DNA of 15,604 nucleotides, taken from assembly GCA_005789685.1 (NCBI GenBank), contig SXXD01000042.1, positions 1 to 15,604 of the forward strand, read 5' to 3'. Origin of the DNA: Burkholderiales bacterium. Its GTDB lineage: Bacteria; Pseudomonadota; Gammaproteobacteria; Burkholderiales; Burkholderiaceae_C. Of the stretch, positions 1,872 through 15,604 are shown piece by piece. The position numbers and the translations under genes were made by a program. Positions within the stretch are counted from its first letter, which is position 1. Every line of letters begins with the position of its first letter. The notes below the pieces were generated by a model. That model searched no databases, had not been told where the DNA came from, and saw nothing but the letters and a program-made list of their open reading frames with translations.

Positions 1872-3566
1872 TCAGGCAATGTAAACGCGCTTTTCAGCAG
1901 CAGTGGGTGTATTGACTTTGTAGGTTCTGCTTGAAATGGTGTCAATGAACAACCACTCACCTTGAACTTGAGCAGTAGAAATAGTCAATTTAAGATAGCC
2001 ACGGCGAGATGAATCCATCCACTTCAAATCCTTGACTACGCCTTCAAAAATAGCTTTAACTTGCGCGGGTGGTAAAGACAAATAGGCTTCCAGTCCAGGA
2101 GAGCTTACGCTGGATGTAGCAAACTCTTCGCCCACTTTCTGGCCAGACATCAATGTCAAATCACTGTGCCAGGCATTGTGTGTATCGCCCGCCAAAACAA
2201 CCAATCGCTTTTTCAGCTGTGCAGCTGTCGACAAGAGAATTTCACGAGCAGCTGGATAGCCATCCCATGCATCCAAGTTGTAACCCAGTTTAGGCTGGTT
2301 CAACAAGGCTGTTTCTGTTGCTGTGATGGGAAAGCCTTGCGCTTGTTTTGCCTTGGCTGTGAGGTAGTCTGTGATGGCTTGTTGACCGGCCGCTTGCGCT
2401 TGTGGACTGGTGTCCGATGGATTCAAGGCTTGCAGAATGGTTAATGGAAACTCCATTCTGGCCATCAAAACTTGTTGGCCAAGCACTTGCCAAGTTGCGG
2501 TTGAAGTAGCCATCTGAGTCTGCAGCCACTGAACTTGCTCTGCGCCCATCAATTGTCTTGTGGGTGATGACAAAGTTGCCAGCGCTCTTGCTTGCTTCGC
2601 TGGATTGATCAAGTCGGTAATTTCAACTTGTTGATCGCGCCCAATCAAACGCGTATCGAGCATGTGCAAGCTCAGTAAGTTGCCGAAGTTAAAGCTTCTG
2701 TAAATCTTGCTCTTGTCTGTACCTGTGCGAATGGGCATCCATTCGTGATAGGCCTGAAGGGCAGCAGCTTTACGGGCTGCAAACGCACCTTCGGTTGCAG
2801 GCGTGTGATTTTCCGCACCATCTTTGTAGGTGTCGTTCGTAAATTCATGATCGTCCCAAACTGCAATCAAGGGCTTGCTGGCATGAAGCTGCTTTGAATC
2901 TGCATCAGACTTGTATTGCGCATGTCGCAAGCGGTAATCACTCAAAGTCAAAATTTCGTTGGCTGGAACAGAGGTTCGGCCTAGACTTGCGGCTTTCTCA
3001 GAGGCGTAGCCAGTTGCAGCATATTCATAAATGTAGTCGCCCAAGTGAATGGCAACATCTGCATCGGAACGGGCAACTTCAGCATACACATTGAAGAATC
3101 CTGATGGGTAATTCGAGCAGGACATCACAGCCAACTTCACATCGCTCACAGCACCAACAGGCAAGGTTTTTGTTTTGCCAATCGGAGAGTTGTGCTGGCC
3201 AGCCTGAAAGCGGTAAAAGTAGGTCTGATTGGGCAGAAGGCCAGTTGCGTCTACTTTGCATGTGTGACCAGTTTCTGCGTTGGCTTGTGCAGAACCAGAA
3301 ACCAGAATCTTTGAAAACTCGAGGTCTGCAGCAACCTGCCATGTGAGGTTAACAGCGTCCGAAAGGCCTTGGAACTTGGCGTGTGTCCACAAAATGACGC
3401 GGTCACTCAGTGGATCACCGCTGGCAACGCCATAGTCAAAATTGACCATGGGAGATTCGCTGCTTCCGCATGCACTCAGAATACCGCCAGTCGATAAAAC
3501 GGCAGAAATAGAACTGACTTTAATGAGAAAGTCGCGACGAGGATGGATATGTTTCAAAGTACTCAC
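1872..3566 (-). CDS. phoD: PhoD-family alkaline phosphatase/phosphodiesterase, Tat-exported lipoprotein
   Basis: A 564-residue PhoD-type metallophosphoesterase. The N-terminus has a twin-arginine motif (PRRDFLIK, residues 9-16) followed by a hydrophobic stretch and the lipobox LSAC (C33), so it should cross folded by Tat and then be lipidated. The PhoD N-terminal domain begins at FDYGVASGDP (43-52). Catalytic motifs are SCSNYPSGFFNVYAEVA (149-165), HLGDYIYEY (174-182), WDDHEFTND (237-245) and GDTHNAWH (460-467). The family uses Fe/Ca and releases phosphate from mono- and diesters in the periplasm. The frame opens with GTG at 3566, but AGGTGAG over that codon could instead serve a TTG at 3557; the twin-arginine motif survives either way. 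It lies 91 bp downstream of ppk2 on the same strand, and the gap holds a Pho-box-like cluster. It ends at the shared terminator. Confidence 0.92.
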   Translation of the reverse strand: MSTLKHIHPRRDFLIKVSSISAVLSTGGILSACGSSESPMVNFDYGVASGDPLSDRVILWTHAKFQGLSDAVNLTWQVAADLEFSKILVSGSAQANAETGHTCKVDATGLLPNQTYFYRFQAGQHNSPIGKTKTLPVGAVSDVKLAVMSCSNYPSGFFNVYAEVARSDADVAIHLGDYIYEYAATGYASEKAASLGRTSVPANEILTLSDYRLRHAQYKSDADSKQLHASKPLIAVWDDHEFTNDTYKDGAENHTPATEGAFAARKAAALQAYHEWMPIRTGTDKSKIYRSFNFGNLLSLHMLDTRLIGRDQQVEITDLINPAKQARALATLSSPTRQLMGAEQVQWLQTQMATSTATWQVLGQQVLMARMEFPLTILQALNPSDTSPQAQAAGQQAITDYLTAKAKQAQGFPITATETALLNQPKLGYNLDAWDGYPAAREILLSTAAQLKKRLVVLAGDTHNAWHSDLTLMSGQKVGEEFATSSVSSPGLEAYLSLPPAQVKAIFEGVVKDLKWMDSSRRGYLKLTISTAQVQGEWLFIDTISSRTYKVNTPTAAEKRVYIA

Positions 3567-3657: not shown

Positions 3658-4569
3658 TTAATATTTTTCAGGCACGATCATGTCTTCAGGAACTGGGTGC
3701 CGAATATAGTCTGGGTTTCTAACGCGCGCAGGTAGCTCAATTTCAGCGTGCTGCACCTCGTGGTAATTGAATTGTCCCAGCAGGTGATCAATGCAATTCA
3801 AGCGCGCTCTCTTTTTATCCACGGCTTGAACCACCCACCAAGGCGCTTCAGGAATGTGTGTGCGCTCAATCATGGTTTCTTTAGCACGCGTGTAATCTTC
3901 CCAGCGCCTGCGGCTTTCCAAGTCCATTGGGCTGAGCTTCCACTGTTTGAGTGGATCGTGGATTCGGCCTAGAAAACGCGCATGCTGTTCATCGTCAGTG
4001 ATTGAGAACCAGTACTTAAGGAGTGTGATGCCACTTCGTGCAAGCATTTTTTCAAATTCTGGCACGGTGCGAAAGAACTCTTCATACTCTTCGTCTGAGC
4101 AAAAACCCATGACTTTTTCGACACCAGCTCGGTTGTACCAGCTTCGATCGAACAGGACGATCTCACCAGCTGCAGGCAAATGCGAAACATACCGCTGAAA
4201 GTACCACTGGGTTCTTTCACGGTCGTTGGGTGCTGGCAATGCTGAAACACGGCAAACACGAGGATTCAATCGCTGGGTAATGCGTTTGATCACGCCACCT
4301 TTGCCGGCCGCGTCACGGCCTTCAAACAATATGACAACTTTTTGCTTGGTTGCAACAACCCAGTCTTGTAATTTGACCAGCTCCCCTTGCAATCGAAGAA
4401 GTTCGCGAAAATAGTGAGCACGCGCCACTTTTTCTTCAGCACTGGCCAAGGGGTCATTCTCATTGACACCGTCCTCAAGGGCCATCTCTAGTTCTTCATC
4501 AATAGAATCCAGAATGTCTTCACGGATTTTGCGCATTTGCTCGGCATCGATTTGAGCTTGTTGATTCAT
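3658..4569 (-). CDS. ppk2: Polyphosphate kinase 2 (class I PPK2)
   Basis: A 303-residue single-domain PPK2, which transfers phosphate between polyphosphate and nucleoside di- or triphosphates in the cytoplasm. Visible motifs are the Walker A EGRDAAGKGG (83-92), the Walker B LFDRSWYNR (139-147) and the basic lid region DPLKQWKLSP...SRRRWEDYTRAK (205-230). Length and domain layout fit a one-domain class I enzyme; sequence alone does not settle GDP versus ADP preference. ATG at 4569 has a good ribosome site (AGAGGAG). It is divergent from the MipA-like gene at 4690 and upstream of phoD on the same strand. Together with phoD it suggests coupled intracellular storage and extracellular scavenging of phosphate. 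Confidence 0.95.
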   Translation of the reverse strand: MNQQAQIDAEQMRKIREDILDSIDEELEMALEDGVNENDPLASAEEKVARAHYFRELLRLQGELVKLQDWVVATKQKVVILFEGRDAAGKGGVIKRITQRLNPRVCRVSALPAPNDRERTQWYFQRYVSHLPAAGEIVLFDRSWYNRAGVEKVMGFCSDEEYEEFFRTVPEFEKMLARSGITLLKYWFSITDDEQHARFLGRIHDPLKQWKLSPMDLESRRRWEDYTRAKETMIERTHIPEAPWWVVQAVDKKRARLNCIDHLLGQFNYHEVQHAEIELPARVRNPDYIRHPVPEDMIVPEKY

Positions 4570-4689
4570 ATCTTGACTCCTCTCGTAACATCATCTTGAT
4601 ACTTCATTGCAAATTCATGACTTAAATTGAATTTCCAAATAATTCATTTTGTCACATGGATTTAACCTTGTAAGCGTAAAACTGACTTG

Positions 4690-5526
4690 ATGATTCACCC
4701 GATGCATGCCCTTAAGCAAATGATCTTTCATGCACTTTGCTTGGTTGTCATCATTTTCAGCATCATCCTATTTCCGTCCACGGCAAACGCACAAAACAGC
4801 TCCACTGAGGCATCTCCTGTTATCAGCGAATCCGACCAACTCTATTACACCCTTGGCACAAGACTGAAGTCCAATGACCTGGGTGATTGGCAAAACACGG
4901 CACGCGTCAGACCCGTAATTGGGCTGCGCTACGGCAAGTGGCAACTGGGCATAGGCGATGGTCGCGCTTGGCGGAATTTAGGCCAGTTTGGCAGTGAGCC
5001 AACACTTAGTTATCAAGTCATGGATGAACAAGATTTGAACATCGGACTTTCTATGCGCGTTCACAACGTGGGCACGGGTGAGTCTTTTGATGTTTTCGAG
5101 GGTGGTAAAAACACTTTGCGAACACGCGTCATGTTGCATCGCAAGATCAATCAACGTTGGCGATTCAATGCAGATTGGACACAAGATGTTTTGAACAAAG
5201 GGGACGGCACCACTCTTAACCTAGGATTGTCATACGCCTGGCCAGTGTTTCAGCAGAGTGAGTTAATTCTTCATGCTGACAGCACTTGGGCCACAGCAGA
5301 ACATTGGCGAAATTCTGGTTCTCAATTCAAAACAGGACCGTTAAACCTTGTCACTACAGGTTTTCAGAAGGTCAGTGCGGGTTTAACTTTCAAGCAATCA
5401 CTTTCAAGACATTGGGCTTGGTATTCTTCATTTGCCATCTCCCAACCCATTGCTAAGCTCAAAAGAATTTCAGGCTTTAACGAAATTGCATCAGGCCAGA
5501 TTGGCATTTTGTATTTCAAACGCTGA
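4690..5526 (+). CDS. MipA/OmpV-family outer-membrane protein
   Basis: A 278-residue exported beta-rich protein. A long signal peptide (hydrophobic about 11-29) ends with a signal-peptidase I site after TANA (A34). The mature part starts YYTLGTRLKSN and then alternates short polar and aromatic strands typical of a small outer-membrane barrel: RVRPVIGLRYGKWQLGIGD, QDLNIGLSMR, NTLRTRVMLHRKIN, TTLNLGLSYAWPVF, VSAGLTFKQSLS. It ends GQIGILYFKR. This pattern matches MipA/OmpV, proteins linked in other species to murein-synthesis scaffolding or to porin-like functions. The frame can also open at TTG 4687; ATG 4690 is preferred, and ATG 4702 is a further option because no clear ribosome site is visible. 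The promoter must lie in the 120-bp gap shared with ppk2. Confidence 0.72.
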   Translation: MIHPMHALKQMIFHALCLVVIIFSIILFPSTANAQNSSTEASPVISESDQLYYTLGTRLKSNDLGDWQNTARVRPVIGLRYGKWQLGIGDGRAWRNLGQFGSEPTLSYQVMDEQDLNIGLSMRVHNVGTGESFDVFEGGKNTLRTRVMLHRKINQRWRFNADWTQDVLNKGDGTTLNLGLSYAWPVFQQSELILHADSTWATAEHWRNSGSQFKTGPLNLVTTGFQKVSAGLTFKQSLSRHWAWYSSFAISQPIAKLKRISGFNEIASGQIGILYFKR

Positions 5527-5574: not shown

Positions 5575-6099
5575 TTGAAACACGAGAAGCATAGAATTTT
5601 CACAAGTTTTCCATTCAATCGTCACTCAAAAAGCTTTGTTTTGAAAAATACATTCATTCAAGTTCCGGCCAAAGCATTGTTGCTGCTTGCCAAAGTTGCC
5701 TTGCCAGTTTTGCCCTTTATCTTTGGTTTTATATTTTTAAAACCCAAGTACATTCTCAACTATCGCGAAACAATTCAGAAGTTGAGAATTCACCACAAGG
5801 CCCTTTCACAGGGACCTGTGAGAAGGTACTTTGAATCATTTTTTGCTGTGCGCTTGAATGAGTCGAGTCAAATTTCAGGTTCTTGCACCCAATGCGGCAG
5901 TTGCTGCCTGAATCAACAGTGTTTTTTTCTAGAGCCCATACCGGAGGACAAGTTCCAATGCGGCATCTACAACTCGCCTTTTAGAAAATTATCGAATTGC
6001 GGTGCTTTTCCTATTTCGGGTGAAGACATTGAGAGGTACGACTGTCCAGGTTATGTCCTTAATCCAAAAACAGTGATAAAGATTGCAGTAGTCAATTAA
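5575..6099 (+). CDS. YkgJ-like cysteine-cluster protein with membrane anchor
   Basis: A 174-residue frame. Residues about 34-55 are strongly hydrophobic (one membrane segment). The C-terminal half carries C104-x2-C107-x2-C110-C111, then C116, C129, C142 and C157. This CxxCxxCC pattern is that of the YkgJ/UPF0153 cysteine-cluster family, thought to bind zinc or an iron-sulfur cluster. No biochemical role is established. No ATG is available: the in-frame stop at 5557 is followed by TTG 5575, and a second TTG at 5641 would still keep the membrane segment. Neither has a good ribosome site, so the start is uncertain. It follows the MipA-like gene by 48 bp and faces the aminotransferase gene. Confidence 0.7.
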   Translation: MKHEKHRIFTSFPFNRHSKSFVLKNTFIQVPAKALLLLAKVALPVLPFIFGFIFLKPKYILNYRETIQKLRIHHKALSQGPVRRYFESFFAVRLNESSQISGSCTQCGSCCLNQQCFFLEPIPEDKFQCGIYNSPFRKLSNCGAFPISGEDIERYDCPGYVLNPKTVIKIAVVN

Positions 6100-6168: not shown

Positions 6169-7821
6169 TTAAACTTTCATTGCATCTCGTTTTTGAAACA
6201 TTTCTTTCAAAATCGATCTGCGGATCAGCTTGTTGGACAGCTCAGGTGGGGCCCAAAACCACTGCGCTGATTTCATAGACTCACAAGCCGCCACAAATCG
6301 ACGCAACACTTCTTCAAAGTCTGCATCTGAGTAATTCAAGCTGAAAATCAAACGACCGGTGCCGACCCAACTGAGCGCCAATCCTTCAGAGCGCAGGTAG
6401 TACTGAAGCATCCAGTTGTAACGGCTTGTGTCCGTGTAATAGAGGCTCCAGACACTCGACATATTGGCAGCCCGCAAAGGCAGTCCTTTTTCAGTCATCA
6501 CCTGATTAAAACGCTCGCGCCTTTGGTTCCAAGTGTTGTCCAAATTGTCGTAAACAGCTGATATTTCAGGTGTTTCAATTTTTTCTAAAAAGACAGACAT
6601 GGCACCCATGACGTGTGGGTGCGCGTTGAATGTACCGCGCGCAAAACAAATGTCAGCGGGCCTTTCTGAGCGAAATCGCTTCATCAAATCGGCACGGCCA
6701 CACACCACGCCCACTGGGTAACCGCCGCCCAAGGTTTTGCCATACGTGACCAAGTCGGCTTGAACGCCAAAATACGCTTGGGCACCACCTTTTGCCAAAC
6801 GAAATCCTAAGAAAACCTCGTCAAATATGAGCACGATGTTGCGTTCGGTACAGACTTCGCGCAGCTTTTTCAACCAAGCTGTGTAAGCTTCCCGATCGTA
6901 TGTCGCCCTGCGGCTGCTATCGACCAAGGAAGAGTCGCCTGGCGCGCCTTGGTTTAAGTGAAGCGCTTGCAAGGGGTTGATCAGGACGCATGCAATGTCA
7001 GATCTGGTACGCAGCACTTTGAGAGAGTTTTCATGCATGTCCCTCAGTGTGTATGTTTCACGGGGTGGCATCGGGTTGCCGGGTCCTGGCTGCACATCTT
7101 CCCACCAGCCATGGTACGCACCACAAAAACGAACCAAGTTTTTACGACCTGTGTGATACCTTGCCAGCCTGACAGCCTGCATGACAGCTTCCGTGCCCGA
7201 CATGTGAAACGACACCTCATCGAGACCAGAAATTTCTTTCAAGCGCTTCACGTTAAAAGCAACACATGGGTGGTAGGCCCCTAAAGTTGCGCCTACTGCT
7301 TCAACCTTCTCCGATCCTAGTTTCATGCATTCTTTGTAAAAATCAGCGCCAAAAACGTTGACGCCGTAAGAGCCCGTCAAGTCGTAAAACCGCTGCCCAT
7401 CTTGGTCTGTCACAAATACGCCATCTGCGGACTGTATAAATGCACCTACTTTCAAGTGTTGTCGCACCAGTGGGCTGAATTGAAATGGAACGCGGTACGC
7501 GCCCGTGAACTGCAAATCAGAAATGATTTCACGCGCTTCGGCTGTCATTTCGATGCTTTTGACGTGCCGTGTCTGTAACAAATTTGCCAGCTGGTAAAAC
7601 GCAGAACGTCGATTAGCAGCCACAGACTCTGGAGCACCATCACATGAGAAGAATTGGTCTTCCTTGAACTCGTAGCCAGGCAAAAAGGAGACCACGCGTT
7701 TTGCCATTCTGGAGTGACCTGTTAATGACGGGTGCTTGGCAAACGACAACTCTAGCCGTCTTTTTACAAAAGGGAATAAGAGTGCAATTGCACCAATGGA
7801 CAAAGCAAGTTGTGTAGACAC
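6169..7821 (-). CDS. Class III PLP aminotransferase, glutamate-1-semialdehyde-aminomutase-like, with N-terminal extension
   Basis: A 550-residue fold-type I PLP enzyme. The core matches glutamate-1-semialdehyde aminomutase relatives: SGTEAVMQAVRLAR (208-221), FCGAYHGWW (232-240), IFDEVFLGFR (332-341, PLP-ring aspartate D334) and YGKTLGGGYPVG (360-371) with Schiff-base lysine K362. The core is preceded by about 110 extra residues, including a short hydrophobic segment (about 5-18) followed by KRR, which may tether it to the inner membrane. That extension and its length make a role as the heme-pathway HemL unlikely; the substrate is unknown. The start is GTG 7821 without an obvious ribosome site; ATG at residue 39 is an alternative that would remove the hydrophobic segment. 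It is divergent from psd with only about 60 bp between starts, so the two may share control. Confidence 0.85.
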   Translation of the reverse strand: MSTQLALSIGAIALLFPFVKRRLELSFAKHPSLTGHSRMAKRVVSFLPGYEFKEDQFFSCDGAPESVAANRRSAFYQLANLLQTRHVKSIEMTAEAREIISDLQFTGAYRVPFQFSPLVRQHLKVGAFIQSADGVFVTDQDGQRFYDLTGSYGVNVFGADFYKECMKLGSEKVEAVGATLGAYHPCVAFNVKRLKEISGLDEVSFHMSGTEAVMQAVRLARYHTGRKNLVRFCGAYHGWWEDVQPGPGNPMPPRETYTLRDMHENSLKVLRTRSDIACVLINPLQALHLNQGAPGDSSLVDSSRRATYDREAYTAWLKKLREVCTERNIVLIFDEVFLGFRLAKGGAQAYFGVQADLVTYGKTLGGGYPVGVVCGRADLMKRFRSERPADICFARGTFNAHPHVMGAMSVFLEKIETPEISAVYDNLDNTWNQRRERFNQVMTEKGLPLRAANMSSVWSLYYTDTSRYNWMLQYYLRSEGLALSWVGTGRLIFSLNYSDADFEEVLRRFVAACESMKSAQWFWAPPELSNKLIRRSILKEMFQKRDAMKV

Positions 7822-7880: not shown

Positions 7881-8759
7881 ATGAAAATGAAACAATTAAT
7901 TCAAAGAATTAGCTCACAAGAAGACCTGAATTTCCTGTTAACCAATCGAATTCCACGCATCACACTGACACGGTTCATGGGTTGGTGGAGTCAAATTAAA
8001 AATCCGATCGTCCGGGACTTGTCAATTGGCGTTTGGAAGTTATTTTCAGATCTTGACTTGAGAGAGGCTTCAAAAACCAAATTTGACAGCATGCATGATT
8101 GCTTTGTTCGCGAACTTAAGCCAGGTTCTAGGACCATTGACATGCGCAATGAGATCCTGAGTAGCCCCTGTGATGCCATTGTGGGCGAATGTGGCGACAT
8201 TGATCACACCCAAGTCTTTCAAGCCAAAGGCTTCCCCTACAGCCTTTCCAGCTTGATGGGCTTCACGCCCAGGACTGGCGAGTTGGTTGAATCCTTGAAA
8301 AATGGCACTTACGTGACATTGCGCCTGACATCCAGCATGTACCACCGATTTCATGCGCCAGCAGATGCAACGCTCACCCACGTGACTCACATTTCTGGGG
8401 ACACATGGAACGTCAACCCCATTGCCTTAAAACGTGTAGAGCAACTCTTTTGCAAAAATGAACGGGCTGTTCTGAATTTCAAACTGACTGACGGAACGCC
8501 CATGATCATGGTGCCCGTAGCGGCCATCTTGGTCGCCAGCTTGCGCTTGCACGCTGTCAATTTGTTGTTCCATGTCGATTACACAGGCCCCAATGAAATT
8601 CCTTGCGCTATCCAATCTTACAAAGGCCAAGAGTTGGGTTGGTTTCAACACGGCTCCACCATTCTGGTATTTGTTCCAAAAGGTTTCAAATTGGCAGAGG
8701 GCATTGCAACGGGTCAGCGCATCAAGATGGGCCAAGCCTTATTGGAAAAATTAACATGA
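7881..8759 (+). CDS. psd: Phosphatidylserine decarboxylase proenzyme
   Basis: A 292-residue proenzyme that decarboxylates phosphatidylserine to phosphatidylethanolamine at the inner membrane. Catalytic elements, numbered from ATG 7881, are D98 in SSPCDAIVGECG, the histidine motif YHRFHAP (H155, H158) and the self-cleavage site HGST, where S259 becomes the pyruvoyl group. Most bacterial enzymes read LGST and YHRxHxP there, so the residue before GST differs. The frame extends upstream to GTG 7839, but ATG 7881 (or ATG 7887) fits the family start better. The stop TGA overlaps the ATG of the next gene (ATGA), implying translational coupling to the 5'-nucleotidase, an uncommon partner for psd. Confidence 0.93.
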   Translation: MKMKQLIQRISSQEDLNFLLTNRIPRITLTRFMGWWSQIKNPIVRDLSIGVWKLFSDLDLREASKTKFDSMHDCFVRELKPGSRTIDMRNEILSSPCDAIVGECGDIDHTQVFQAKGFPYSLSSLMGFTPRTGELVESLKNGTYVTLRLTSSMYHRFHAPADATLTHVTHISGDTWNVNPIALKRVEQLFCKNERAVLNFKLTDGTPMIMVPVAAILVASLRLHAVNLLFHVDYTGPNEIPCAIQSYKGQELGWFQHGSTILVFVPKGFKLAEGIATGQRIKMGQALLEKLT

Positions 8760-10516
8760 GAATTTCAGCCTTCAGATCAAGAGTCTTCGCTTTCACTGGA
8801 GTCCTTTTGAGCGCTTGTGCGCCAATGAACGAACTCCCCATCGCATCCACCGAAAAGATCAATGTCAGTATTTTGGCTTTCAACGATTTACATGGCCACT
8901 TAGAGCCCCCCAGCCTGAGTGTCCGGGAGCGAATTGATGGCAATTTGACAGAAGTACCTGCAGGTGGAGCTGCCTACTTAGCTGCCGCCATACAACATCA
9001 CAAAAAACTGCATCCATTACACGCCGTTGTTTCTGCAGGCGACATGATTGGTGCAACCCCCCTCATCTCTGCGCTTTTCCTGGACGAGCCCACCATCGAA
9101 GCGGTCAATGCCATGGGTATCGATTTCAATGCCGTCGGCAATCATGAGTTTGACAAAGGCACGCCTGAATTAATGCGCATGCGCCAGGGTGGTTGTGAAA
9201 AGTTAACTCGGCTAGAGCCGTGTCAAGTCAATCGCCAATTTCCAGGCGCCAACTTTGAATTCTTGGCTGCCAATGTGAAAAAGTCAGACCATGAAACTTT
9301 GTTTCCGGCTTATGGCATCAAGACTTTCAAGCAAGGAAATCAAGTGATCAAAGTTGGCTTTGTTGGCATGACCCTCAAAAACACACCCAACTTGGTCATA
9401 CCTGAAGGCGTTAAGGGTTTGAAATTTGAAGACGAAGCAGCTACTGCCAATGCTTTGGTGCCCTTGCTCAAAGCGCAAGGCGTATCTGCCTTGGTTTTGG
9501 TCATTCATGAAGGCGGCGTCATCCAAGGTGGGCCTAACGATGCTTCGTGCCCCGGACTTTCAGGCGACATCGTTCCCATTTTGAACAAACTTGACACAGG
9601 TTTTGATGTGGTGGTTTCTGGTCATACACACCGTGCTTACGCTTGCGACTACAAAAGAATCAATCCCAGCAAGCCATTTCTTTTGACCAGCGCGGGTCAA
9701 TATGGCACGTTTCTCACGCACATCCAGTTGTCTATTGACCCTATTTCTAAGACAGTCCAAAACAAAACTGCAAGCAATGTCATTGTTCAAAGTGAAGCCT
9801 TTGTCAACGCCTCCGGCATCCAAGTTAAGCCAAGCTCTGCCCTGCCTTTTTTCGGCAAGCAAATGGATGTCGAAAAAATTGTGAATGACTATCGCAAGGC
9901 CTCGGAAGTACAAGTGCTCAAAGAAGTCGGTCGCTTGTCGACCTCCATCACGCGCAATGCATCGCCCTCTGGCGAGTCTGGGCTAGGCAACCTGATTGCT
10001 GATGCTCAATGGTCTTCTACGGCGTCTGCAGAACGGGGACGATCCGATTTTGCGCTGATGAACCCTGGTGGTGTGCGCGCAGACATTTTGATTCAACAAG
10101 GTGGAGGCACCGTCAACTTTGGACAGCTTTTTAAAGTTCAGCCATTTGGCAACACACTGGTAGTTAAGCGCATGACGGGGCAGCAAGTCAAAGACTTGTT
10201 AGAACATCAATTTGAGAACCTCGATAGACCCAAAGTATTGTTTCCTTCTGAAGGCCTGAAATACGAAGTCGATCGCAGACAGCCCAAAGGACAACGGGTT
10301 CAGAACATTCAAATCGGTCAAAAGCCACTTGACTTGGCTCGTGCTTACAACGTAACCATGAACAGCTTCTTAGCTTCTGGCGGCGATGGATTTTGGCATT
10401 TCAATCAAGCACCGACCCTATCGGGCGGTGAGTTAGATGTCGATGCGCTTTCAGATTACGTGCAGAAACGCCCTGGCTTAAAGCCCGCGCCAACAGATCG
10501 CATTCGAATGTTGTGA
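8756..10516 (+). CDS. 5'-nucleotidase / 2',3'-cyclic phosphodiesterase family lipoprotein (UshA-type)
   Basis: A 586-residue protein starting at ATG 8756, which overlaps the psd stop. The open frame continues upstream inside psd, but only this start gives a signal peptide with lipobox LSAC (C21). The N-terminal metallophosphoesterase domain shows NDLHGH (43-48), AGDMIG (95-99 region), GNHEFDKG (128-135), VIHEGG (249-254) and SGHTHRAY (288-295). The C-terminal 5'-nucleotidase domain shows ESGLGNLIADAQ (407-418), MNPGGVRADI (435-444), FGQLFKVQPFGN (455-466) and the substrate-stacking region NSFLASGGDGF (536-546). Members hydrolyse nucleotides or UDP-sugars to nucleosides and phosphate in the periplasm; this copy should be anchored by lipid rather than soluble. 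Exact substrate is open. Confidence 0.92.
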   Translation: MRISAFRSRVFAFTGVLLSACAPMNELPIASTEKINVSILAFNDLHGHLEPPSLSVRERIDGNLTEVPAGGAAYLAAAIQHHKKLHPLHAVVSAGDMIGATPLISALFLDEPTIEAVNAMGIDFNAVGNHEFDKGTPELMRMRQGGCEKLTRLEPCQVNRQFPGANFEFLAANVKKSDHETLFPAYGIKTFKQGNQVIKVGFVGMTLKNTPNLVIPEGVKGLKFEDEAATANALVPLLKAQGVSALVLVIHEGGVIQGGPNDASCPGLSGDIVPILNKLDTGFDVVVSGHTHRAYACDYKRINPSKPFLLTSAGQYGTFLTHIQLSIDPISKTVQNKTASNVIVQSEAFVNASGIQVKPSSALPFFGKQMDVEKIVNDYRKASEVQVLKEVGRLSTSITRNASPSGESGLGNLIADAQWSSTASAERGRSDFALMNPGGVRADILIQQGGGTVNFGQLFKVQPFGNTLVVKRMTGQQVKDLLEHQFENLDRPKVLFPSEGLKYEVDRRQPKGQRVQNIQIGQKPLDLARAYNVTMNSFLASGGDGFWHFNQAPTLSGGELDVDALSDYVQKRPGLKPAPTDRIRML

Positions 10517-10551
10517 ATTAGCACTAACCCTGCTTAGTAACGAATTTGTCA

Positions 10552-10572
10552 CACTAATTTTCTATGCTAGTG
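10552..10572. promoter_or_regulatory. Short inverted repeat upstream of exbD, possible operator
   Basis: CACTA (10552-10556) and TAGTG (10568-10572) form an inverted repeat around an 11-base AT-rich spacer containing TATGCT, a possible -10 element at 10563-10568. A related pair, ACTAA/TTAGT, occurs at 10523-10538. The gap of 82 bp between the nucleotidase and exbD could hold a promoter for the TonB block. No convincing Fur box was seen. Weak evidence. Confidence 0.25.
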
Positions 10573-10598: not shown

Positions 10599-11012
10599 AT
10601 GCGCCATTGGCAGCAAACACAAAGAAAAAAAGCTCGCATCGAGATCATCCCCATGATCGATGTGATGATGTTTTTATTGGTTTTCTTTGTTCTTATCAGT
10701 GTCAATGTGATTCCTGCTTTGGGCATCAAAACACAACAGCCGAATTCGTCTCAAGTACAACAACTTCGAACCAAAGATGTGCAAGTTGTTGTCACTTTGG
10801 GAAAAGAGAATGTCATTCAGGTCGATGGCAAAGATGTTGAGCTTAAAGATTTGTCGGCTGCAGTAAAGAGAAAAGCTGGTACTGCGGAACAAATTGCCGT
10901 GATCGTGAACAGCGACAAGGGCGCAGAAGTTCAAACCTTGATAGACGTCATGGACGAAATCAAAAAATCAGGCTTAGGCAAGGTCTCTCTTGCAGCTCGT
11001 GAGCGTCAATGA
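10599..11012 (+). CDS. exbD: ExbD/TolR-family proton-channel subunit
   Basis: A 137-residue protein from ATG 10599 (an upstream in-frame TTG at 10590 would add three residues). A short cytoplasmic basic segment (RKKARIEIIPMID) leads into one membrane helix, about 18-40. D21 in PMIDVMMFLLVFF is at the position of the essential membrane aspartate of ExbD/TolR. The rest is a periplasmic domain with the usual VVVTL...I.VDG pattern. It works with ExbB to harvest the proton gradient and energise TonB. Its stop overlaps the next ATG (ATGA), so it is coupled to tonB. Unusually, exbB is not adjacent but lies 3.1 kb downstream, after the receptor gene. Confidence 0.9.
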   Translation: MRHWQQTQRKKARIEIIPMIDVMMFLLVFFVLISVNVIPALGIKTQQPNSSQVQQLRTKDVQVVVTLGKENVIQVDGKDVELKDLSAAVKRKAGTAEQIAVIVNSDKGAEVQTLIDVMDEIKKSGLGKVSLAARERQ

Positions 11013-11728
11013 TGCCACTCATTGACAGGTTGAACCAAGAGCGTCACAAACTTTCAAGTTTGGGGTCATTGCTGTTGGTCTTCTTTGTATTTTCAATGGC
11101 ACAAGCCATTAAAGGACCTGCCGAGATGTTGGCGCAAGAGGCCATGGAGCTGACCACAACGCTGATTGAGCCCTTGCTTCAGCCTCCAACTAAAACGCCT
11201 CCGCCGCAGGTCAAACCGCCCGAACCAAAACCCAAAATGCTGGCGATGCCTAATGCGCCAATCACGCCAGCACCCATTGAACCTGCTAGAGAAGTAACTG
11301 CCGCTGCCGAATCACCGCGGCCCATCCCCACACCTACACCCACACCCACACCAGCCCCGAGCTTGCCGACTGCAACCCCTGTTCAAGAAGCACCAAAGGT
11401 GGCAGTGCAGCCGCCAGTTTCAGTCAGCTTAGAAAACAATTACATCGTGAGCGTGCGGGCAATACTCAATGCCAACAAGCGCTACCCCACTGGTAGAGAA
11501 GCAAGCCTGCAACGCCCTTCTGGCAAAGTGAAACTTTGGTTTGTATTGGCTCGAAACGGTGCGCTGCAAGATGCCGGCATTGATGAGTCGAGCAACTCCA
11601 TCATTTTGGACAACGCTGCTTTGTCAACACTGCGTCGCACCACTTATGCGCCATGGCCTGAAGGCAGTTGGGCCTCTCAGTCGCAACACAAATTTACCGT
11701 CACCCTTGATTTTGTTCCTCTCAATTAA
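11009..11728 (+). CDS. tonB: TonB energy transducer
   Basis: A 239-residue TonB-like protein. One N-terminal membrane anchor (about 18-34) is followed by a long proline-rich stretch (about 57-137, with PPTKTPPPQVKPPEPKPK and a Pro-Thr repeat at 105-117) that spans the periplasm. A C-terminal domain follows at about 145-239, with KRYPTGREA, SGKVKLWFVLARNG and FTVTLDFVPLN. The C-terminal fold and the RYP motif fit the TonB/TolA C-terminal family that binds receptor TonB boxes. The histidine expected within the anchor helix of classical TonB is not evident; H13 lies just before it. ATG 11009 overlaps the exbD stop. The receptor follows 20 bp downstream, suggesting a dedicated TonB. Confidence 0.88.
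   Translation: MMPLIDRLNQERHKLSSLGSLLLVFFVFSMAQAIKGPAEMLAQEAMELTTTLIEPLLQPPTKTPPPQVKPPEPKPKMLAMPNAPITPAPIEPAREVTAAAESPRPIPTPTPTPTPAPSLPTATPVQEAPKVAVQPPVSVSLENNYIVSVRAILNANKRYPTGREASLQRPSGKVKLWFVLARNGALQDAGIDESSNSIILDNAALSTLRRTTYAPWPEGSWASQSQHKFTVTLDFVPLN
11320..11353 (+). repeat. Hexamer-like ACACCC repeat inside tonB
   Basis: Imperfect repeats of a CACACC/ACACCC unit encode the alternating Pro-Thr run at residues 105-117 of TonB. The unit is six bases, so copy-number change would keep the frame and only alter the length of the periplasmic spacer. Confidence 0.6.
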
Positions 11729-11748
11729 TTTTTTTACCAGGAGTTTTT

Positions 11749-14130
11749 ATGAAAAAATTTAAGCCAACCCCACTCGCCTTGCTCATCAGCTTGGCTTTTG
11801 CCTCTCCCATTCTGATGGCGCAACAAGCCACAGACGTGGGCAAGATCAATGTGGAAGGTCAACCAGGCGCCACTGACTCGGGCTTGATCTCCCAAGAAGA
11901 AACACCTAAAGCGCGCAGTTCAGTGAACCGTGCTTACATGGAAAAGCTGAATCCATCTGCCAACGCCTTTCAAGTGATTGATTTGTTGCCTGGCGTGAAT
12001 TCATTCAGCAGCGATGCCACTGGCCTGTTTGGCGGCGGCATCCGTGTTCGCGGCTTTGCCGGCGATCAAATGGGCCTGACCATCAATGGCGCCCCGGTGA
12101 ATGACTCAGGTAACTTTGCCGTGTACCCACAAGAATACACAGACTCAGAAAACTTGTGCGAAGTGTTTGTGACACAAGGTTCTACCGACACAGATGCACC
12201 TCACGTTGGCGCCTCCGGTGGCAACTTAGGCATGGTGACTTGCTCACCTAAAGACAAATTTGGAATGCGCGCAGCAGTGTCCACAGGCATGCTGAAATAT
12301 AAGCGTGCCTTTGTTCGCTTGGACACCGGTAAGTTTGGTCCCAGCGAAACCAAAGCGTTTGTGTCTTACTCCAAAACCACTGCGAACAAATTCAAAGGTC
12401 CGGGCGGCGCTGACCGTGAGCACATTGATTTAGCCGTTGAATCTCGTCCCAACGCCGATGTCTTTTTGAGCGCCAGTCTTTTGTACAACAACGCCATCAA
12501 TAACAACATCCGTGGCTTGAACAATGCACAAATTGCGCAATTTGGTCGCAACTTTGATTTCAGCAGCGTGGCCCCACAGCACTTGACGCCAGTTGCCGGC
12601 ACGGCTCAACTTGAGTCGCCTTCTGCAGACGGCTATTACAAATTCAACATCAACCCCTTCCGCAATTATTTGTTCACCAGCAAGGCCGAATTCAAAGTCA
12701 ACAAAGACTTGACCGTGAGCGCAGAGCCCTATTTCTGGTATGGCTACGGTACAGGCGGTGGCCAATTGACCACCCTGACTGAGGGACGCTCAGCTACCCA
12801 AACCTTGGCACAAAGTTCACGCGATATCAACGGTGACGGTGACTTGCTTGACAGAGTGATGGTGTACGGCAGCAGCTTGACTGAAACCAACCGCCCTGGT
12901 GTGACTTTCAAAGCCAACTACCGCGTTGAAAATCACAACATCAATGTGGGCTATTGGGTTGAGCGTGCACAACACGTGCAAACAGGCCCTCGCGTGAAAA
13001 TTGACAACGCGGGCAACTCTGCCAACCTTTGGCTTGACGATACTTCTGCTTACCTCTTGCGTGCCGACGGCAAGCCCTATCAAGCGCGCGACTGGAAAAC
13101 CATCAGCACCGGCACTTCCTTGTTTGTACAAGACAGCATTTCATTGATGCAAGACAAGCTGAACGTTCAGGTCGGCCTGAAAAACTCGGCCATTGAACGT
13201 GACTTCACCAACTATGCCAACGCCGGCACTTTTGGCGTCGGCCGTGCTGATTTGGATTATCAGATCAAGCGTACATACAGCAAAGTTCTGCCCAGCTTTG
13301 GCGCTAAATACAACTTAGATGCTGAAAAGTCGGTGTTCTTCAATGTTGCAGAAAACTTCCGCGCACCGTCCAACTTTGTCCTGTCTAACTTGTACACAGG
13401 CGGCACATCGGTAAACGGCACACTCACTGGCGCTACCATGCGCAACCCCACAGTTGGCATCGAGACCTCGACCAATTTCGACTTAGGTTATCGCTTGCAG
13501 AACAAAGACACCACCTTCTCGGGTTCTGTGTTCATGGTTGATTTCAAAGACCGCATTGCTTCCGCTTGGGATCCCGTTAGCTTGAGCTCATTGGATTACA
13601 ACGTTGGCAATGTGACCATGAAAGGTGCTGAGCTTGAGTTGGGCCAAAAGTTGAACAAAAATTTCTCGGTTTATGGCTCACTCACTTACACCGAAAGCTT
13701 GATGAAGAAAGACTTGAAAGTCAATGCGACACTGACAGAAGCCACTGCTGGCAAACAAATGCCTGACACACCTAAAGTCATGGCAGCCTTGGCTATGAGC
13801 TACAAAGAAGGTCCTTTGTTTGGCCTCCTCACAGTTAAGCACACTGGCAAAGCATTCTCAACCTTGGTCAACGACCAAGCGATGGACGCCTACTCCCTGT
13901 GGAACTTGTCAGTTGGCTATAAGTTGCCTGAAACAGCGATGTTCAAGTCACCTGAAATTCGCTTCAATGTGGACAACTTGACCAACACTGAATACAAGCG
14001 CATTAACTCACCCAGCGGCTCTAGCTTTACGGCCCGTTCTTTGCCCTTGGGAACATTGTCAGGCTCTAACCCTACCTACAACATTGGTGCACCACGCTTC
14101 ACCAGCGTGACATTGCGTTCCGACTTCTAA
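11749..14130 (+). CDS. TonB-dependent outer-membrane receptor, ligand unknown
   Basis: A 793-residue receptor with a good ribosome site (AGGAG, 7 bases before ATG 11749). The signal peptide ends near MAQQ (residues 23-26). A TonB-box-like segment, DVGKINVEG, lies at 29-37. The plug domain spans about 53-170, with AFQVIDLLPGVNSFSS, IRVRGFAGDQMGLTINGAPVND and GGNLGMVTCSP. The remainder is a barrel ending in FTSVTLRSDF, with the usual C-terminal phenylalanine and a penultimate-strand signature FNVDNLTNTEYKR. The only cysteines I find are C137 and C165, both in the plug, so a disulfide is likely. Nothing identifies the ligand; no heme-receptor FRAP/NPNL motif was seen. Sitting inside exbD-tonB-[receptor]-exbB-tatT, it is probably the outer-membrane gate of that system. 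Confidence 0.93.
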   Translation: MKKFKPTPLALLISLAFASPILMAQQATDVGKINVEGQPGATDSGLISQEETPKARSSVNRAYMEKLNPSANAFQVIDLLPGVNSFSSDATGLFGGGIRVRGFAGDQMGLTINGAPVNDSGNFAVYPQEYTDSENLCEVFVTQGSTDTDAPHVGASGGNLGMVTCSPKDKFGMRAAVSTGMLKYKRAFVRLDTGKFGPSETKAFVSYSKTTANKFKGPGGADREHIDLAVESRPNADVFLSASLLYNNAINNNIRGLNNAQIAQFGRNFDFSSVAPQHLTPVAGTAQLESPSADGYYKFNINPFRNYLFTSKAEFKVNKDLTVSAEPYFWYGYGTGGGQLTTLTEGRSATQTLAQSSRDINGDGDLLDRVMVYGSSLTETNRPGVTFKANYRVENHNINVGYWVERAQHVQTGPRVKIDNAGNSANLWLDDTSAYLLRADGKPYQARDWKTISTGTSLFVQDSISLMQDKLNVQVGLKNSAIERDFTNYANAGTFGVGRADLDYQIKRTYSKVLPSFGAKYNLDAEKSVFFNVAENFRAPSNFVLSNLYTGGTSVNGTLTGATMRNPTVGIETSTNFDLGYRLQNKDTTFSGSVFMVDFKDRIASAWDPVSLSSLDYNVGNVTMKGAELELGQKLNKNFSVYGSLTYTESLMKKDLKVNATLTEATAGKQMPDTPKVMAALAMSYKEGPLFGLLTVKHTGKAFSTLVNDQAMDAYSLWNLSVGYKLPETAMFKSPEIRFNVDNLTNTEYKRINSPSGSSFTARSLPLGTLSGSNPTYNIGAPRFTSVTLRSDF

Positions 14131-14140
14131 GGCCATCAGC

Positions 14141-14713
14141 ATGATGCTTTTTTTGCACGATGCGTCGCTGTATTTGTTGTATGTCGCCTTAGGGCTGGCT
14201 GTCTTCTTGGCCATTGAACGTACGATTTTTTACTCGCACGCCAGTGGGCAAATTAAAAGCCTCCTCAATGCATTGAAAACCAAGTCCCCATTGCCTGAAT
14301 TTAAAGAAGGCGATGTGGGCGAGGTAGTCACCCATGCCTTTGCCAATGGCCTACATCCCACAGCCTCCCAAAAGCTTGCTGACGATGTAGCCGAACAGGC
14401 CTTTATCCGTGTGCAGCATCAATTGAACCAACACCTTTGGGTGTTGGACACCATTGTGACTGCTGCACCTTTATTGGGCTTGCTCGGAACCATTTTGGGT
14501 ATTTTTGATACTTTCACCGCATTGGCCAAGTCCGGCATTTCAGACCCTCAAGGTGTGAGTGCTGGCATTGGCACTGCTTTGCTGGCTACGGCCATTGGCA
14601 TTGGCACTGCCTTGATATGCCTGATTGTTTACAACGCTTTTCTGGCCAAAGTAGAACGGCTTGGAGATCAAACAAAATTGGCATTGCTCCAAATGTCCAA
14701 TCGAAACGCATGA
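14141..14713 (+). CDS. exbB: ExbB/TolQ/MotA-family proton-channel subunit
   Basis: A 190-residue protein with three membrane helices: about 8-26, 103-125 and 141-167. The second, VTAAPLLGLLGTILGIFDTF, and the third, SAGIGTALLATAIGIGTALICLIVYN, carry the small-residue and threonine patterns of ExbB/TolQ channels. It is short for ExbB because the N-terminal periplasmic extension is absent. ATG 14141 follows the receptor stop by 10 bp, with AAGG at 14129-14132 as a weak ribosome site. ATG 14144 is an alternative. It forms the proton channel with the upstream ExbD. The next gene starts 19 bp after its stop. Confidence 0.92.
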   Translation: MMLFLHDASLYLLYVALGLAVFLAIERTIFYSHASGQIKSLLNALKTKSPLPEFKEGDVGEVVTHAFANGLHPTASQKLADDVAEQAFIRVQHQLNQHLWVLDTIVTAAPLLGLLGTILGIFDTFTALAKSGISDPQGVSAGIGTALLATAIGIGTALICLIVYNAFLAKVERLGDQTKLALLQMSNRNA

Positions 14714-14732
14714 TGAGACAAAAGGTGCCAGT

Positions 14733-15604
14733 TTGCATAATCTAATTCTCAGTTTGTTCAAGGTTTTTTTCACTGGCAGCTTGTTGATTGCTGTGCTAAG
14801 CGGGTGTTCAGTTCAGCATCAACTTTTGAATCGCGCTGGCGACTTATTGTCTGCAGAGACCAGCTCTACTGACGATGACTTAGAGCTGTTGATGCACGCT
14901 AGTGCTTACCAACTGAAACTTTCAGAATCGCTGTTGCAGGAAATTCCAAATCACTTGAAACTCGCAGAAGCCGTCACACGTGGCTACACACAGTATGCGT
15001 TTGTCTTCTTGATGGACGAAGCCGACCGAGTTGAATCGGAAAGTATTCAAAAAGCAAGTGTTCTCAGAGGGCGCGCAGCCAAGATGATGACACGTGCAAA
15101 AACAGTGGGCCTCAAAAGCTTAGCCAATCATTATCCAGATTTGAAGGGACACCTCCAAGGAAAAGGTGTCAAGCACGCCATCAAGATTAAAAAGCAAGAT
15201 ACAGGCTTGGTCTATTGGTCCATGACGGCATGGGCGGGTGCCATTTCCTTGTCCAAAGACTCACCAGATGTGGTTGCAGACTTGCCAGAAGTGTTGCGTA
15301 TGGCCGAGCTGGCATGGCAAGCAAATCCTCAATTCGATCAAGGTGCATTGGCCAGCATGATGGGGACTTTGGAACTTGCAAAGCCAGGTGGCAAACCTGA
15401 AGCTGCAGAAAAATATTTCAATCTTGCCATTGAGTGGCGAGGCAACCAAGTTGCACCCCTGATTTCTAAAGCCGAAAACTGGGCGGTCGCAACCCAAAAC
15501 AAAGAAGCCTTTAAGCTGCTTCTCAATCAGGCCATAGAGCTTGCTCGCTCTCAAAATGATTTAACCAATACTGTCATGCGGCGAAGGGCACAATGGTTGC
15601 TTGA
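14733..15604 (+). CDS. tatT: TatT-type TRAP-transporter lipoprotein, 3' end missing
   Basis: An open frame of 290 codons runs off the right edge without a stop. TTG 14733 is chosen because AAGG (14722-14725) lies seven bases upstream and the product then has a short signal peptide (hydrophobic about 3-22) with lipobox LSGC near residue 25. The mature protein is almost all alpha-helical, with TPR-like helix pairs: AVTRGYTQYAFVFLMDEADRV, SVLRGRAAKMMTRA, GLVYWSMTAWAGAISLSKD, VLRMAELAWQANPQF, AAEKYFNLAIEW. This pattern fits the TRAP-associated TPR protein TatT, known as Treponema Tp0956, which forms a complex with a TRAP solute-binding protein. Here it follows exbB, so it probably passes the ligand from the receptor to a TRAP permease. 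Partner genes would lie beyond the window. Confidence 0.8.
   Translation, partial: MHNLILSLFKVFFTGSLLIAVLSGCSVQHQLLNRAGDLLSAETSSTDDDLELLMHASAYQLKLSESLLQEIPNHLKLAEAVTRGYTQYAFVFLMDEADRVESESIQKASVLRGRAAKMMTRAKTVGLKSLANHYPDLKGHLQGKGVKHAIKIKKQDTGLVYWSMTAWAGAISLSKDSPDVVADLPEVLRMAELAWQANPQFDQGALASMMGTLELAKPGGKPEAAEKYFNLAIEWRGNQVAPLISKAENWAVATQNKEAFKLLLNQAIELARSQNDLTNTVMRRRAQWLL

Follow-up and report, generated by a model that had tools for sequence, protein, structure and literature searches.

Gene content of the locus

The window analysed here, an entire contig of 15,604 bp (SXXD01000042.1) from the Burkholderiales genome G000 of a freshwater bacterium, ends in five genes: those for a TonB-dependent receptor (TBDR) and its ExbB-ExbD-TonB machinery, and tatT, which encodes the T-component lipoprotein of a TPAT-family tripartite ATP-independent periplasmic (TRAP) transporter. 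The genes exbD (10599-11012, ATG start at 10599), tonB (11009-11728), the receptor gene (11749-14130, 793 aa), exbB (14141-14713) and tatT (14733-15604) follow one another on the plus strand. An ATGA overlap joins the end of exbD at 11012 to the start of tonB (ATG at 11009), and the gaps that follow are 20 bp between tonB and the receptor gene, which is the largest, 10 bp between the receptor gene and exbB, and 19 bp between exbB and the TTG start of tatT at 14733, the start that agrees best with relatives. In the Pfam scan of the window proteins, all five units were judged against the curated cut-offs and all lay above them: ExbD (PF02472, 101 bits), TonB_C (PF03544, 38 bits; TIGR01352 also above its cut-off at 39.6 bits), the barrel (PF00593, 142 bits) and plug (PF07715, 42 bits) of the receptor, MotA_ExbB (PF01618, 96 bits) and TAtT (PF16811, 158 bits against a cut-off of 26.5). 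With ExbB, ExbD, the TonB C-terminal domain, plug and barrel all found, the receptor has the parts of a TBDR energised by TonB-ExbB-ExbD; the scan found no Pfam domain in it beyond plug and barrel. The tatT product, incomplete at the contig end, has an LSGC lipobox as read from the sequence and a fold similar to Tp0956. An earlier note on this DNA had described the same five-gene order with its spacing and overlap, and had placed the last gene in the TatT family; coordinates, Pfam domains and the domain search agree with it on both.

In genus relatives the conserved unit starts one gene before exbD, at a gene for a UshA-like 5'-nucleotidase and apparent lipoprotein (8753-10516, plus strand; PF02872 136 bits, PF00149 31 bits). 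A Pho-box-like promoter of exbD lies at 10535-10568 on the same strand, with GTAAC and GTCAC half-sites 11 bp apart, followed after 10 bp by TATGCT.

The TRAP trio is complete in relatives

The contig stops in tatT and holds no TatP, and the facts on TatP come from relatives. The earlier note had expected TRAP genes to follow tatT, and this was confirmed there: in 8 of 8 relatives that share the exbB-tatT junction and have sequence beyond tatT, the TPAT trio is complete, with tatP and a fused permease gene, tatQM. All eight also carry the 5'-nucleotidase unit, spread over two contigs in G079. A cultured relative, Limnohabitans sp. MMS-10A-178, has the entire locus on contig NZ_NERY01000001.1. 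Among 60 TatT loci of the wider class, tatP was present in 57 and tatQM in 55.

The TatP proteins are 69-91% identical to the L015 protein across loci with a TonB unit, with phn genes or with neither. When aligned to Tp0957 and to arginine-bearing TRAP proteins, the position of the substrate-binding arginine was Phe in 13 of 13 relatives' TatPs, within an invariant KFF. Because identity is high across contexts and KFF is invariant, the sequences suggest one ligand class for TatP in all of them. Most TatP signal peptides have no cysteine; those of L013-L015 have one, with no clear lipobox by reading.

Joining of the TonB unit and the trio within one genus

We surveyed 90 genomes of the genus and found TatT in 42, the receptor in 22 and both in 21 (21/22 receptor-bearing genomes versus 42/90 overall; Fisher p 5e-8, without phylogenetic correction). 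We read the genes around TatT in 30 of these 42 genomes, and in G063, G069, G070, G071, G077, G096, G097, G099, G103, G106, G107 and G111 TatT is known by its coordinates only. The receptor-bearing genome without a TatT match, G082, is 77% complete and its receptor is 50% identical. In 12 of the 22 receptor-bearing genomes exbB directly precedes tatT, with the unit spread over contigs in G079 and G003; chance adjacency was rejected, given this recurrence of the junction. Another six (G075, G066, G007, G112, G108, G102) have the trio near the TonB unit on the opposite strand. The halves lie on different contigs in three (G069, G070, G071), where the G070 contig stops inside the receptor gene and the G069 contig right after exbB, and clear separation is seen only in G071. 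TPAT trios without a window-type TonB unit occur in L019, L020, L022, L025 and L027 to L033. Two further loci hold another TonB set: in L026 (872-6473) a different receptor-exbB-exbD-tonB set, followed by a metallophosphoesterase, lies about 4.5 kb upstream of tatT, and L072 (16462-19545) has, near the trio, a second TonB set that a metallophosphoesterase follows and whose receptor would fall past the stretch.

The same order was also sought across the wider class, where TatT was found in 92 of 369 genomes (87 above the cut-off). With the window's ExbD, ExbB, TonB and receptor as queries, the 60 class TatT loci gave no match at E 1e-5; six of these stretches are shorter than 10 kb, and a divergent receptor could escape such a search. 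When 60 TatT-bearing genomes were searched with an ExbD profile, the closest ExbD among the matches listed lay about 63 kb from a TatT, as read from the coordinates. The search for the five-gene order proposed in the earlier note recovered it inside the genus and in none of the class loci, and a general TonB-TPAT system is unsupported.

Receptor homologues of 36-50% identity were found outside the genus at 13 loci in 11 genomes. Five loci keep the exbD-tonB-receptor-exbB order, and a homology search of these loci found TatT in none of the 13. In an rpoB tree of 38 genomes, most receptor-bearing tips fall in one clade, with G071 in addition; G005, G030 and G100 lack both receptor and TatT. The rpoB gene was recovered from 18/30 and 22/30 genomes, fragments from G102 and G099 were dropped, and G000 is represented by a 420-base piece.

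Phosphorus genes neighbour both halves

Wherever the gene before exbD is on the contig in the genus, it encodes the UshA-like 5'-nucleotidase; the exception is the divergent unit of G082 (L052). Beside the receptor homologues we found further 5'-nucleotidases (L055, L059, L060, L062, L063), PhoD-like phosphatases (L052, L064, L065, L066, and a tblastn match in L058), phospholipase D (PLD) proteins (L055, L056), and a PF04185 phosphoesterase together with a PhoX-like protein (L058). Near two receptor paralogues lie a PnrA-like binding protein and a PfkB kinase (L057, 139-7020), and a purine permease, a PfkB kinase, a nucleoside hydrolase and a phytase-like protein (L061, 11528-17421). No phosphorus gene emerged in L054 from the query set or from the two genes that were scanned; its receptor unit is directly followed by a hybrid sensor kinase of 1786 aa that contains a GGDEF domain (11839-17199). 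With self-hits excluded, phosphoester hydrolase queries matched 13 of 16 receptor loci (10/13 outside the genus plus L049, L050 and L052) versus 1 of 60 class TPAT loci, a contrast that is indicative only, as most of these queries came from receptor loci. The steadier partner of the TonB unit is a 5'-nucleotidase or other phosphoester hydrolase, not the TRAP trio.

These neighbours bear on the cargo of the receptor. A siderophore- or haem-type receptor that supplies iron, with an indirect phosphorus link and an unrelated trio, would be in keeping with its best NCBIfam matches, which are siderophore and haem receptor models, and with its sole PDB sequence matches, the FoxA and CntO entries, weak and confined to a C-terminal stretch. 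PhoX and PhoD need iron, and iron for such iron-dependent phosphatases could form the indirect link. The NCBIfam scores lie far below the cut-offs, however (88.3/223.5, 86.2/316.85 and 84.6/323.75 bits), and the receptor homologues adjoin nucleotidases, PhoD, PLD, a PnrA-like binding protein or purine-salvage genes. We regard iron supply as very unlikely.

In some genomes phosphorus genes also stand beside the trio. In L025, L027 and L030 it sits between phnM and phnC-phnD-phnE of a carbon-phosphorus (C-P) lyase cluster, and in L029 phnE follows it by about 0.5 kb within such a cluster, phnC and phnD not being at that position. Pfam confirmed PhnI, PhnJ and PhnD in L025 and recognised phnM only as an amidohydrolase; phnG, phnK, phnC and phnE were assigned by position and reading only. 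PhnJ occurs in 19 of the 90 genus genomes, 16 of which carry TatT (Fisher p 2e-4, uncorrected). PhnJ and TatT share a strand and are separated by 3.4 kb in G013, G077, G021, G023, G024 and G106; in G111, G070 and G102 the distance is 9-17 kb. Among 19 pstS-bearing genomes, six have pstS and tatT on one contig, 8.9-33.8 kb apart (G001, G011, G013, G024, G033, G098). Between trio and TonB unit stand two alkaline phosphatases in L044 and L072 and other genes in L046, L070 and L071, and a phytase-like gene adjoins tatT in L026, L070 and L072.

Elsewhere in the window, a PhoD-like phosphatase (1872-3566) and a PPK2 polyphosphate kinase (3658-4569), both on the minus strand, are further phosphorus genes. 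Two plus-strand genes, at 4687-5526 (product likely exported) and 5575-6099 (cysteine-rich, kept in relatives), have no Pfam match.

Pho-box-like promoters

For a reference set we fetched 19 pstS loci and scanned 18, and a Pho-box-like site preceded pstS in 17. These sites comprise 16 distinct sequences; their half-sites stand 11 bp apart, and a -10 hexamer comes 10 bp after them. The pattern was drawn up after inspecting the pstS sequences. A 20-column matrix made from these sites was run over the other loci; 500 column-permuted matrices, which keep the relatedness of the loci, and 32 of the 62 tatT loci outside the genus served as controls.

In 13 of the 14 loci where tatT is the first gene of its unit, the 250 bp upstream of it hold one of the three best sites of that locus, and the median rank is 2; the 14 loci are related, and L046 and L040, cut on the upstream side, are omitted. 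Permuted matrices reached on average 0.69 loci in the top three (maximum 6), their median rank was never below 5.5, and tatT outside the genus had a top-three site in 2 of 32 loci, with a median rank of 60. L030 holds pstS itself, which is the top site there. Five loci bare of phosphorus neighbours (L022, L028, L031, L032, L033) are among those with a Pho-like site before tatT.

This result bears on whether the trio imports fatty acids or hydrocarbons and stands beside phosphorus genes by chance. The missing carboxylate-binding arginine of TatP would fit that account, as the hydrophobic-pocket protein Tp0957 has Ala at this position in the available part of PMC4646407; so would the suggestion made for TPATs in the accessible text of PMC5812351, and the seven genus TPAT loci at which the queries used found no nearby phosphorus gene. 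However, the Pho-like sites before tatT, those of the five bare loci included, argue against it, as does the C-P lyase and pstS neighbourhood, and we consider it improbable.

For exbD the signal is weaker: the site was among the top three in 7 of 17 loci (permuted matrices: mean 0.85, maximum 7), with rank 2 in L018 and L048. The GTAAC-N6-GTCAC-N10-TATGCT layout before the window's exbD is kept with small changes in the closest relatives; the exbD genes of G069 and G071 have no Pho-like site (ranks 129 and 42). At the nine loci tested in which tatT follows exbB, no Pho-like site before tatT was among the top five, which could mean that a joined trio relies on the promoter of exbD.

Two other ways of scoring were tried. 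A hand-made Pho consensus found no significant site before the window's exbD (p 0.31) and pointed to the psd/amt and phoD sites. A first matrix of 34 columns, which ranked the window's exbD site 16th, was discarded as overfitted. The top matrix match in the window, a psd/amt site at 7887 on the minus strand, was not counted, as it overlaps the psd start region. The class-III aminotransferase gene concerned (6169-7821, minus strand) is divergent from psd, and in many genus loci it has a Pho-box-like site 65-66 bp upstream, which may be a coding or ribosome-site signal.

Opposed to a common transport path is the view that both halves are phosphate-starvation genes gathered in one phosphorus island, carrying different molecules with no relay between them. 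Each half shows its own Pho-like site where the two lie close but on opposite strands (G075, G108, G112), the halves rearrange (opposite strands in 6/22, clear separation in G071), all 13 receptor loci outside the genus lack a TatT match, and other phosphorus genes gather at the locus. Against this, 12 of 22 genomes have both halves in what appears to be a single operon, and in all nine such loci tested tatT lacks its own Pho-like site. Close as this account is to the one we prefer, we hold it to be somewhat unlikely.

Proposed role and its standing

Our preferred reading is that this is a phosphate-starvation-induced locus for scavenging organophosphorus compounds in Limnohabitans-like Comamonadaceae, to which we give a probability of about 0.58. 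Under PhoB induction, the receptor, powered by the co-encoded ExbB-ExbD-TonB, would bring an organic compound that contains phosphorus through the outer membrane; the periplasmic lipoprotein 5'-nucleotidase or a related phosphatase would act on it; and the TPAT would import the compound or its dephosphorylated part, TatT serving as the periplasmic relay, TatP as the binding protein and TatQM as the permease. The ligand may be a nucleotide or nucleoside, a phosphonate or a lipid-like phosphorus compound; a lipid-like ligand would fit both the hydrophobic TPAT proposal in the accessible text of PMC5812351 and the PLD neighbours. That receptor and TPAT share a ligand, and so act in series on one molecule, is plausible and the least secure step.

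A more specific version would make the locus a one-operon importer across the whole envelope, working under phosphate starvation. Its receptor would pass to TatT a compound that bears phosphorus and is perhaps lipid-like, for example a fragment of a phospholipid or phosphonolipid; a periplasmic phosphatase would trim this compound and TatP-TatQM would import it. We regard this version as doubtful. The earlier note had likewise proposed, as a candidate, a single two-membrane import system. The TRAP part of that proposal is complete in relatives, whereas the joining is limited to 12 of 22 receptor-bearing genomes of one genus and the TonB unit has its steadier partner in a phosphoester hydrolase. 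What the earlier note had observed is real and conserved inside one genus; the assignment to phosphorus goes beyond that note.

Several results weigh against the scavenging reading. TonB-TPAT joining was observed in one genus only, and the co-occurrence of receptor and TatT rests on few independent events; because the rpoB tree groups most receptor-bearing tips in one clade, the Fisher values are not independent evidence. By the queries used, both phn genes and phosphohydrolase matches are missing in seven genus TPAT loci (L019, L020, L022, L028, L031, L032, L033), and phosphohydrolase queries scored in 5 of 17 genus TPAT loci, self-hits excluded. The median rank of the exbD site is 10, which some permuted matrices equalled (lowest 5.0). 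In the window, the pstS-derived matrix places the exbD site 13th among 31,142 positions, and the ranks are 10-54 in L013-L016, L024, L035, L042 and L043, which are 8 of 10 joined or close relatives. Where tatT stands behind psd (L019, L020), it has no Pho-like site (ranks 46 and 143). TPATs have, moreover, been proposed to carry hydrophobic and not phosphorylated ligands, in the available text of PMC5812351. Our confidence is slightly lower because several TPAT loci have no phosphorus neighbours and because the median-rank control for exbD is rather weak.

Promoter sites together with C-P lyase, pstS and phosphatase neighbours tie a TPAT subfamily to phosphorus, which narrows an open search for ligands to a few candidates for tests on freshwater bacteria in culture. 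Should the receptor and the TPAT take the same ligand, a TRAP transporter would here be supplied through a TonB gate dedicated to it. The one-operon importer, if real, would give the TPAT branch of the TRAP transporters a physiological substrate class and reveal a TonB-to-TRAP relay.

Comparison with known systems

TPAT ligands are described as unknown or undetermined in the available parts of PMC4646407 and PMC10942540, and the titles and abstract openings of open-licence literature yielded no link between TPATs and phosphate or between TonB and TPATs. The closest known system is TatT-TatP-TatQM of Treponema pallidum (Tp0956-Tp0957), which belongs to the TPAT family. There the arginine site of TatP is Ala, whereas here it is Phe; both TatT and TatP are lipoproteins in Treponema according to the accessible text of PMC5812351, whereas a cysteine is missing from most TatP signal peptides of the relatives; and the trio described here is in some genomes preceded by a TonB unit, and its promoters are Pho-like. 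The sterol transporter component BstC of Methylococcus belongs to the T-component family. Its partner BstB resembles PhnD-type binding proteins, in contrast to the DctP-type TatP found here, its ligand is a sterol, and the part of the source available mentions no TonB unit.

On the receptor side, the Caulobacter pair of Cc0171 and ElpS includes a TonB-dependent receptor, Cc0171, discussed in phosphate-starvation physiology; the available text (PMC2996285) mentions no ExbB-ExbD-TonB or TRAP genes in its cluster and calls Cc0171 constitutive and its role unproven. On the TRAP side, the ethanolamine transporter EtoX of Phaeobacter has separate small and large permease genes, and no TatT or TonB genes are among those named in the accessible part of PMC10132767. 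According to the same text, it serves growth on phospholipid head groups, with PhoX helping their cleavage, and by analogy EtoX offers a precedent for a phosphorus-linked role of a TRAP transporter.

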